Assembly: GCF_024758505.1 (NCBI RefSeq)
Contig: NZ_CP077970.1
Coordinates: 5,766,001-5,830,000 of the forward strand
Length of the DNA stretch: 64,000 nucleotides
Direction: 5' to 3'
Source of the DNA: Bradyrhizobium arachidis
Lineage (GTDB): Bacteria > Pseudomonadota > Alphaproteobacteria > Rhizobiales > Xanthobacteraceae
In this document: one piece after another, positions 57,845 through 59,755 of the stretch
Layout: each line of letters opens with the position of its first letter
Position numbering within the stretch: the first letter of the stretch is position 1
Made by a program: the position numbers and the translations under genes
The notes under the pieces: generated by a model
Database searches by the model: none
What the model was told of the DNA's origin: nothing
What the model saw: the letters and a program-made list of their open reading frames with translations, nothing else

Positions 57845-58843
57845 TCAGCGCTGTTCGCCAGAGAATGCGCCCCGCAACCCTGACAGGCGGTCGAGTGCGG
57901 CCTGCGGCAATGGCCCCTTTTCGACCGCGGCCAGCGCGTCATCGAACTGTTGTGACGTCGCCATGCCGACGAGGATCGTGCCCATGGCGGGGTGCGAGAG
58001 CGCAAACCGCGTGGCGGCTTCGGTGAGGGTCGCGGCGTACCCCTCCTCCACGAGCGGCATCAGACGGCGTGCGCGATCGACATCGGCTTCGTAGCTCATG
58101 GCCGAACCGATCGGCTCCGGTGCCGGACCGGCAACCGGGTGACGTTCGGCCGAACCCGACAGTGCACCGCCGGCAAGCACGCGAATTCCCACGACGCCAA
58201 CGCCGGCCGCATCGGTGTGATCGAACAATTTTCCGTAGTCGTGCGCCGGATAGTTCGCCGGCAATGCGTTCGCGGCGGATGGATTGAGCATGTTGTAGAC
58301 GATTTGTGCGCTATCGAAGGCGCCAGTATCGATTACCTGATGCAGCGCCGCCGTGTCGCCCAAAGCCGTAATCCCGAGGTAACGGATTTTCCCCTGCTGA
58401 CGCAGACGCTGAAAGGCCGGGATCACGTCGTCCAAAACCTGACCGACGTTCAGCGCCGATCCGCCTCCTGTCCCGGTGATGGGATTGTGCAGGTGGAAGA
58501 TGTCGACCCGGTCGAGGCCCAGTCGCGACAGGCTCCCTTCCAGCGACTTCGCGACGGCATCGGCAGTGCCGCCGAGTTCACCGGGCAGCAGTCGGACTTT
58601 TGTGCCGACGACCACATCCGCCGGCCTCAACTTTCGCAAGATACGGCCGAGGTTTTTCTCCGACTCGCCATCACCGTACAGCACCGCGGTGTCAAAGTAG
58701 TTCACGCCGGCAGCGATCGCCCGCGCGACCGTGCGCTCCTGATCGGTGGGATCGCCGCGAACCATCAGTCCGCCCACCGCGCCGCAGCCGAAGCCCAGCA
58801 CCGAGACCTCCATGCCCGTGCGTCCAAAGACCCTCGTCTGCAT
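57845..58843 (-). CDS. Aldo/keto reductase
   Basis: A 332-residue aldo/keto reductase. Catalytic tetrad candidates are Asp and Tyr in NYFDTAVLYGDG near residue 48, Lys in VVGTKV near 78 and His in FHLHNP near 115. It likely reduces an aldehyde or ketone with NADPH. ATG at 58843 has a GGGAG site. The gene is divergent from the ModE-like gene, 103 bp apart. Confidence 0.88.
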   Translation of the reverse strand: MQTRVFGRTGMEVSVLGFGCGAVGGLMVRGDPTDQERTVARAIAAGVNYFDTAVLYGDGESEKNLGRILRKLRPADVVVGTKVRLLPGELGGTADAVAKSLEGSLSRLGLDRVDIFHLHNPITGTGGGSALNVGQVLDDVIPAFQRLRQQGKIRYLGITALGDTAALHQVIDTGAFDSAQIVYNMLNPSAANALPANYPAHDYGKLFDHTDAAGVGVVGIRVLAGGALSGSAERHPVAGPAPEPIGSAMSYEADVDRARRLMPLVEEGYAATLTEAATRFALSHPAMGTILVGMATSQQFDDALAAVEKGPLPQAALDRLSGLRGAFSGEQR

Positions 58844-58946: not shown

Positions 58947-59321
58947 ATGCCGCGCGCAAGCGCCAAACCGCTTCCCCAATTGAGCGTCCGGATCGACCTC
59001 GACGCAGAGGACCGGATCGGGCCGGGAAAGATCCAGCTCCTGGAGCAGATTCGCGAGCACGGCTCGATCTCGGCCGCCGGGCGCGCCATGGACATGTCCT
59101 ACAAGCGCGCCTGGGATCTGGTGGACGAGATCAACCGCATCTGCGGGCATCCCGTGGTCGAGCCGCAGGCCGGTGGCAAGAATGGCGGTGGCGCGATGCT
59201 GACCCCGTTCGGCGCGGGGCTCATCGCGCGCTACCGCAAGATCGAGCGCGACGCCGCACGCGCGGTACGCAAGGAATTGATGGCGCTCAGAAGCGATATC
59301 GGACGGTCGCGCAAGGCCTGA
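58947..59321 (+). CDS. ModE-like molybdenum-type transcriptional regulator, DNA-binding domain only
   Basis: A 124-residue winged-helix protein. The segment IQLLEQIREHGSISAAGRAM then SYKRAWDLVDEIN, and later GGKNGGGAMLTPFGAGLI, is characteristic of the DNA-binding domain of ModE. The C-terminal molybdate-binding (TOBE/Mop) domains are absent, so either another protein senses molybdate or this domain responds differently. It converges on the gene at 59337, whose start carries a Mo-box-like palindrome. ATG at 58947 is preferred by domain boundary. Confidence 0.82.
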   Translation: MPRASAKPLPQLSVRIDLDAEDRIGPGKIQLLEQIREHGSISAAGRAMDMSYKRAWDLVDEINRICGHPVVEPQAGGKNGGGAMLTPFGAGLIARYRKIERDAARAVRKELMALRSDIGRSRKA

Positions 59322-59336
59322 TGCCGCCGGTCGACG

Positions 59337-59714
59337 CTAGTTCGGCCGCCCCCTCGCCTCAGCTACCGGCTGGACCAGCGCCTCGGCGAGCAGGTTCTGC
59401 TCCGCTGCCGGAATCGAGAACCGGACCTTGAAACCGTCTTCCGTCTCCAGCGTCATGATGCGCTGGGCGTTGTCGGTCGACTGCTCCAGCACCCATGAGG
59501 CCAGCGGATAGGCGTAACGCAGGCTCTGGTCGCCATAGCGCGCCTTCAGCGCTCTCTCCAGAAGACCCGGCAACGTCATGATCAGCGCGCCGACCTGGTT
59601 GAGCGAAACCTGCACGGCGGCAGGATTGCCGGTGGTGTCCTCGAAACCCAGCGAGATCGCGCCGCCGTCGGGAGCCACCTCGCAGGTGGTGAGCGCCTTG
59701 ACAGTGATTTCCAT
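59337..59714 (-). CDS. Uncharacterised protein with Mo-box-like element at its start
   Basis: A 125-residue soluble protein opening MEITVKALTTCEVAPDGGAIS, with a VQVSLNQVGALIMTLPGLLERAL helix-rich middle. No family recognised. ATG at 59714 has an AAGGGAA ribosome site. The perfect inverted repeat at 59726-59755 overlaps the ribosome site's edge, so a bound repressor would block the gene. It ends 16 bp from the ModE-like gene. Confidence 0.7.
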   Translation of the reverse strand: MEITVKALTTCEVAPDGGAISLGFEDTTGNPAAVQVSLNQVGALIMTLPGLLERALKARYGDQSLRYAYPLASWVLEQSTDNAQRIMTLETEDGFKVRFSIPAAEQNLLAEALVQPVAEARGRPN

Positions 59715-59725
59715 TCCAACGTTCC

Positions 59726-59755
59726 CTTCGCTATATCTTCGTAGATATAGCGAAG
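59726..59755. promoter_or_regulatory. Putative Mo-box (ModE operator)
   Basis: CTTCGCTATATCT, four bases (TCGT), then its exact inverse AGATATAGCGAAG: 13-bp arms without mismatch. Inside lies CGCTATAT-N8-ATATAGCG, the same layout and spacing as known ModE sites. It lies 11 bp upstream of the start of the gene at 59337-59714. Confidence 0.75.

Follow-up and report, generated by a model that had tools for sequence, protein, structure and literature searches.

A conserved Mo-box beside a short ModE-type regulator in Bradyrhizobium points to a possible cofactor-sparing switch

The 64,000-nucleotide (nt) stretch of the Bradyrhizobium arachidis genome analyzed here (contig NZ_CP077970.1, positions 5,766,001 to 5,830,000), called the window below, contains a perfect 30-bp palindrome at 59726..59755 with a Mo-box inside it. 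The palindrome stands just ahead of an open reading frame (ORF) for an uncharacterised protein of 125 amino acids (aa) counted from its ATG (59337..59714, minus strand). Convergent with this gene, with the two stop codons 15 bp apart, is an ORF for a 124-aa ModE-type protein that has the DNA-binding domain only, the ModE(S) type (58947..59321, plus strand). We consider it probable that this short ModE represses the genes behind the box while the molybdenum cofactor is plentiful, and that cofactor shortage would bring on molybdenum-free backup enzymes together with the 125-aa protein. The reading starts from what was observed: how the site is built, that it is unique and conserved, its likely promoter position in relatives, its co-occurrence with modE and the identity of the other genes that carry the box. 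Known roles of ModE concern molybdate uptake, molybdenum enzymes and alternative nitrogenases, whereas here ModE-type sites are found at the promoters of an unnamed family and of molybdenum-free dehydrogenases.

The palindrome reads CTTCGCTATATCT-TCGT-AGATATAGCGAAG, two perfect 13-bp arms around a 4-nt centre, and its Mo-box core, CGCTATAT-N8-ATATAGCG, occupies 59729-59752; the arms and the N8 core layout had been noted in a preliminary description of this DNA and can be read directly. In the part of the source available (PMC545781), the Escherichia coli ModE consensus is given as ATCGNTATATA-N6-TATATANCGAT, with which the window site agrees in core letters and spacing. The symmetry alone is modest evidence and only mildly unusual, as 12 dinucleotide shuffles of the window produced one perfect palindrome with arms of at least 13 bp. 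Far more weight attaches to the consensus match. Throughout the source genome (a single contig of 9,429,272 bases), the window site is the sole ModE-consensus site with a spacer of 6-10, and also the sole site with 0 or 1 mismatch to the consensus. Allowing up to 3 mismatches brings the genome to background level (37/33 matches; reversed control 32/37).

Conservation of the box was assessed in 50 orthologue loci from a named genome collection, found with a profile of the 125-aa family and comprising 44 distinct sequences. Their records carry the name Bradyrhizobium with a single exception, 'Frankia sp. RB7' (L088, JAUEPE010000057.1), which has Bradyrhizobium-type sequence, 84% protein identity and a similar neighbourhood and is probably mislabelled or contaminated. 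The box is present in every one of the 50 loci and starts 39-50 nt ahead of the aligned gene start, with 14/14 core letters matched in 43 loci, 13/14 in six and 12/14 in one. (Boxes are scored here at 12-14 of 14 letters, and at 12 of 13 in the stricter upstream test and in the count of modE flanks.) The core comprises 14 near-invariant positions of 1.76-2 bits, while the spacer and near flanks mostly stay below 1 bit. Because the box is conserved in all orthologue loci found, coincidence is untenable as an explanation, and the earlier assignment of a Mo-box to this gene is borne out. The box is a conserved operator, predicted to be one for ModE.

The relatives also indicate where the operator lies relative to the promoter. 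A CTGGAC element, 80-88% conserved per position, is found exactly 17 nt upstream of a TATATC within the left half-site. This spacing is the geometry of a sigma-70 promoter, and a protein bound at the box would therefore cover the -10 element. CTGGAC, the -35 element, has diverged or been lost in the window and in its closest relative, so that TATATC at 59744..59749 (minus strand, in the left half of the box in that reading) is assigned as the likely -10 element of the window by analogy only. The palindrome had been placed at the ribosome site of the 125-aa gene. With 11 nt between the palindrome end and the ATG, it only touches the Shine-Dalgarno region; in relatives it covers the likely -10 element. 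A hairpin in the RNA that controls translation of the 125-aa gene would be another use for such a palindrome, and the window transcript does fold strongly there (-23.9 kcal/mol, z -3.24), adjoining the Shine-Dalgarno region. Across the 50 loci, however, the third core position can pair with its partner in 20% (composition predicts 14%) and the outer and inner flank positions with theirs in 10-54%, beside core letters that hardly vary. Complementarity is thus not maintained at positions that the ModE consensus does not specify. This favours an operator acting as DNA over an RNA stem, and we regard the hairpin as highly improbable.

The candidate for binding this operator is the 124-aa protein. 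It is matched by TIGR00637 (ModE_repress) at 95.2 bits (E 1.9e-27) and by PF00126 at 27.2 bits, and among known structures by PDB 2ijl (E 1.5e-29) and, over its residues 24-99, by E. coli ModE 1b9m (E 2e-14). The 2ijl entry, a 135-aa protein which we take to be from Agrobacterium, is named 'Molybdenum-binding transcriptional repressor'. No C-terminal Mop domains are present in the 124-aa protein, which ends at residue 124 and so is not a full-length ModE. This agrees with the preliminary description of a ModE-type protein without molybdate-binding domains. The Mop model TIGR00638 has no match at E<=0.001 anywhere in the genome; 5 of 14 control genomes were matched. The genome has a single ModE domain, and its three further TIGR00637 hits, at no more than 27 bits, are of LysR type to judge by score and length. 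The canonical ModE role of molybdate-transport repressor was considered and rejected for this protein, because modABC in the same genome has no box. From its sequence, we classify the protein as a ModE(S)-type regulator with predicted Mo-box binding and a different regulon. In one genome (L259, G046:C1:2010000-2022000), modE is retained at 90% identity next to an apparently truncated PBP_like regulator, and neither the 125-aa gene nor a box was seen; the regulon appears to be decaying there.

The 125-aa protein has no Pfam or NCBIfam match worth naming and no PDB relative by sequence. Its homologues number 957 at E<=1e-3 and 1636 with a profile. An AlphaFold2 model built from 101 sequences (mean predicted local distance difference test score 80.5, predicted template-modelling score 0.47) predicts a tandem beta-beta-beta-alpha repeat, whose structure matches are weak and mixed and include PUR repeats, COMMD and Rtt106 as well as ModG and the di-Mop part of ModE. 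The preliminary description had called the sensor of this system missing or split. Missing agrees with the absence of Mop, as expected of ModE(S). In the split variant, the 125-aa protein would be a diverged molbindin-like partner that lends the short ModE its metal sense, and the ModG and di-Mop matches would be the trace of this. Against it, the Mop-type structure scores are tied with those of PUR repeats, COMMD and Rtt106 PH domains, below the trust level of the tool; the strands that follow the helix are not ordered as in Mop; TIGR00638, as above, finds nothing by sequence in the genome, this protein included; and 27 of the 66 modE genomes lack the 125-aa gene. We rate a split sensor as very improbable, and a cryptic metal-sensor role for the 125-aa protein as possible but unlikely. 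A paralogue family (L253-L257), 34-38% identical to the 125-aa protein, has no box and is often found near genes that, judged by eye, resemble O6-alkylguanine-DNA alkyltransferase.

Co-occurrence of box, gene and regulator in related genomes, set beforehand as a test of the pairing, was found. Of 117 genomes of the genus, 41 have the exact box, 41 have the 125-aa gene (a count that includes G034 and G048 with fragments only, and G013 with a weak match only), and 37 have both. modE, counted as hits of at least 89.4 bits in sets compiled by hand from the search tables, is present in 66, including 40 of the 41 genomes with the box and 39 of the 41 with the gene. In the 50 orthologue loci, a modE-like gene lies within the fetched flank in 44, always downstream and convergent (44/44) and at most 150 nt away in 17; in two of the remaining six, the flank available is shorter than 3.2 kb.

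The association extends beyond the genus. Relatives of the 125-aa protein are found in 8 of 297 genomes of the order, five of them outside the genus. In G226, a 14/14 box lies immediately ahead of the relative (35% identity) and a ModE (66%) is convergent with it, in the same arrangement as in the window. In G372 (42%), a 13/14 box is accompanied by a divergent aldehyde dehydrogenase (ALDH) and a ModE (53%). These two genomes represent two other families of the order. The relative in G265 (41%) has an 11/14 match, and no box was found in G280 or at the weak match in G171.

Of all genes with the box, the 125-aa gene carries it most consistently; in relatives, other genes carry it too. A divergent 469-aa ALDH (PF00171) lies beyond the box in 26 of the 50 loci; the box is upstream of all 26, at a distance of 38-42 nt from the aligned start in 25 cases, and the downstream control gave 0/26. 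(The search for neighbours dropped ALDH hits below 60% identity, short-chain dehydrogenase/reductase (SDR) hits below 50%, and hits shorter than 60% of the query.) DUF2478 (PF10649) is found in 26 loci, mostly behind the 469-aa ALDH. Six modE genomes that lack both the 125-aa gene and an exact box (G001, G024, G031, G049, G098 and G113) have a 13/14 box between a divergent SDR and a 498-aa ALDH, 35-40 nt ahead of the latter, and G101 has a 14/14 box at the same position. Further boxes precede other ALDHs and a beta-propeller protein. The latter is a 334-aa SMP-30/strictosidine-synthase-like protein, with a conserved CGCTATATACTATCGTATATATCG-type box about 120 nt before it, remote from modE, in eight genomes (L192, L193, L195, L197, L200, L216, L218 and L221).

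Formate dehydrogenase (FDH) genes form a second group and are the partners of the box outside the genus. Relatives of an NAD-dependent FDH, 67-100% identical, occur in 34 of the 297 genomes of the order, and an Azospirillum member reaches 714 bits against NF005750, whose cut-off is 329. In 6 of 30 loci read, out of 40 places listed, a box of at least 12/14 is present about 1.2 kb upstream of the FDH, in four families, and in all six it precedes a LysR gene with the same orientation; the control, with loci shuffled in 2-base blocks, yielded 1/150. On a plasmid of Azospirillum sp. B510, a 13/14 box lies 64 nt before a series of genes for a ModA-like substrate-binding protein (SBP), DUF2478, LysR, NAD-FDH and NifQ, and Aureimonas sp. 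AU20 has a 12/13 match before ALDH-DUF779 and 11/13 matches before modA and one more gene; these single cases are given without a chance estimate. Two side observations concern these loci: a second Mo-box-like site (13/14) just upstream of an ABC transporter ATP-binding gene on the B510 plasmid (L310 8207), and an in-frame TAG in the NAD-FDH gene of one genome (L280, G191:C2:34360-35559). The ALDH and NAD-FDH families use no molybdenum, and the boxes ahead of them suggest an emergency switch for when the cofactor runs out. The preliminary description of a compact pair fits the window, where the regulator and the box gene stand together, but in most relatives it gives way to a set of box-bearing genes for molybdenum-free dehydrogenases.

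Many relatives also have, near the box, a regulator of 360 aa with a helix-turn-helix (HTH) and a PBP_like domain (PF12727), which could be the protein that binds it in place of the short ModE. Its HTH is ModE-like (46.5 bits to TIGR00637), and in 5 of 20 loci the box lies just behind the regulator gene, before GATase or 475-aa ALDH (ALDH475) genes. However, the window genome has the box and no such regulator among its TIGR00637 hits, and 12 of the 41 box genomes lack the 43-52-bit hits in long ORFs that we took for this regulator, whereas one of 41 lacks a strong short ModE. We therefore think it very unlikely, if marginally less so than a split sensor, that this protein rather than the short ModE is what binds the box. 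As to the family itself, five loci (L196, L201, L213, L219 and L220) have a 360-365-aa ModE-like HTH protein followed by a Mo-box and a GATase-type gene, and GATase loci overall have the box directly upstream in five of nine. The PBP_like domain was shown for one member of this family, which is possibly a one-component regulator of molybdate/tungstate type. Opposite modE in the window, and divergent to it, is an aldo/keto reductase gene (PF00248, 146 bits; 57845-58843, minus strand), at a position where syntenic relatives have the HTH-PBP_like regulator and an ALDH of 495-528 aa.

Several results weigh against a cofactor-sparing role for the short ModE. The TIGR00637 score of 95.2 bits is 3 under the curated cut-off of 98.5, which no match in the 117 genus genomes attains. 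In the window genome, modA is found at C1:9118926 (197 bits), and the best match to the Mo-box in its 3.7-kb locus is 10/14 at any spacing of 4-12; an orthologue of the 469-aa ALDH was not found there (best 58%), nor was an NAD-FDH at the set threshold. Since the sole box found in this genome is at the 125-aa gene, the connection to molybdenum-free enzymes is drawn from relatives. The Fisher p values of the co-occurrence (2.1e-21 for box and gene, 1.8e-12 for modE and box, 6.2e-11 for modE and gene) ignore shared ancestry. Of the 66 modE genomes, 23 have neither the exact box nor the 125-aa gene. Six of the 23 are those with the 13/14 box between SDR and ALDH, but three modE-only neighbourhoods (L147, L148 and L151) showed no box of at least 12/14. 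The reversed control pattern is found in 25 of 117 genomes (at most one per strand), so an isolated exact box at a distance from these genes could arise by chance. With the stricter test, the box is directly upstream of DUF2478 in 3 of 26 loci, of ALDH528 in 0/18, of ALDH498 in 1/14, of the SDR in 1/15 and of the HTH-PBP_like gene in 0/20. Boxes of at least 12/14 are absent from 24 of the 30 NAD-FDH loci and from 5 of 6 named plasmid FDH loci.

These results leave room for a short ModE that binds the same operator as a local regulator of aldehyde and formate metabolism, without responding to molybdenum or its cofactor. That no Mop domain was found in the genome and that modABC has no box would fit such a regulator, as would the fact that the box genes of relatives are largely aldehyde and formate dehydrogenases. 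The surroundings of the box speak for a link to the metal: a ModA-like SBP is present in four of the 50 loci, in three as the next gene downstream of the 125-aa gene; TupA/TupB-like genes lie within about 5 kb of modE in G101; and the Azospirillum series includes the ModA-like protein and NifQ. Several of these neighbours look molybdenum- or tungsten-related, and short ModE proteins reportedly sense cofactor status. We consider a regulator blind to molybdenum unlikely, though it deserves to be taken seriously.

For the cofactor-responsive repressor that we favour, binding, repression, the signal and the physiological purpose are what we infer from these data. The gene at 58947-59321 would encode a ModE(S)-type repressor, with the winged-helix domain of ModE and without its two Mop domains. 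While molybdenum cofactor (or molybdate) is plentiful, a dimer would bind the Mo-box at 59729-59752, cover the -10 region and keep the 125-aa gene off; on cofactor shortage the repressor would release and the 125-aa protein would be made. In relatives, the release would also free NAD(P)-dependent ALDHs and a metal-free NAD-FDH, enzymes that could replace molybdenum-dependent aldehyde and formate oxidoreductases. A wider proposal, in which the short ModE proteins of Hyphomicrobiales use one type of Mo-box to hold a cofactor-sparing regulon off until the cofactor fails, is one we hold more tentatively, a little on the doubtful side of even. This regulon would take in the 125-aa family, DUF2478, NAD-ALDHs and metal-free NAD-FDH together with its LysR gene.

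If the favoured reading is true, the unnamed family, with more than 1600 homologous database entries, gains a setting, aldehyde and formate oxidation join the processes in which isoenzymes are switched to spare the cofactor, and there is a candidate for what represses metal-free FDH in the presence of molybdenum. The reading would matter for rhizobia, where nitrogenase shares the molybdenum, and ModE-type sites are found ahead of these genes in several families of the order. On the wider proposal, the 125-aa family would be a new molybdenum-starvation protein, and the regulator would be named for methylotrophs, in which a metal-free FDH is reportedly repressed by molybdenum; we know of no explanation for that repression. 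What looks new is that the cofactor-sparing switch would reach aldehyde and formate oxidation as well as an unnamed family, and the entries listed by our searches of the open literature include no such report.

Among known systems, the closest in architecture is the ModE(S) of Agrobacterium tumefaciens (Atu2564), which in the 2016 work of Hoffmann et al. is said to repress modABC via Mo-boxes and to follow molybdenum-cofactor status. The two share the short form, a strong match to 2ijl and Mo-box-type sites, which are reported for Agrobacterium; they differ in that the target there is reportedly modABC, whereas the box found here stands before the 125-aa gene and, among relatives, before molybdenum-free dehydrogenases. 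With full-length E. coli ModE (1b9m/1o7l), the window protein shares the aligned winged-helix domain and its box the site core and spacing, as far as these are given in the available part of PMC545781, but it lacks the tandem Mop domains and no box precedes modABC here. The Desulfovibrio ModE with a single DNA-binding domain resembles ours in having that domain only and in that its sensing is unexplained, and differs in its site, CGGTCACG-N14-CGTGACCG, and in its location before molybdate transport operons, according to the same portion of PMC545781. That text also describes a general strategy in which a cofactor represses cofactor-free alternatives. The nearest parallel in logic is found in Rhodobacter capsulatus MopA/MopB and Azotobacter ModE, which repress the activators of alternative, molybdenum-free nitrogenases (available parts of PMC6925177 and PMC9542535). 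In those systems, as proposed here, Mo-boxes hold molybdenum-free isoenzymes off while molybdenum is present; the targets there are nitrogenase activators, whereas here they would be aldehyde and formate dehydrogenases and the 125-aa protein.
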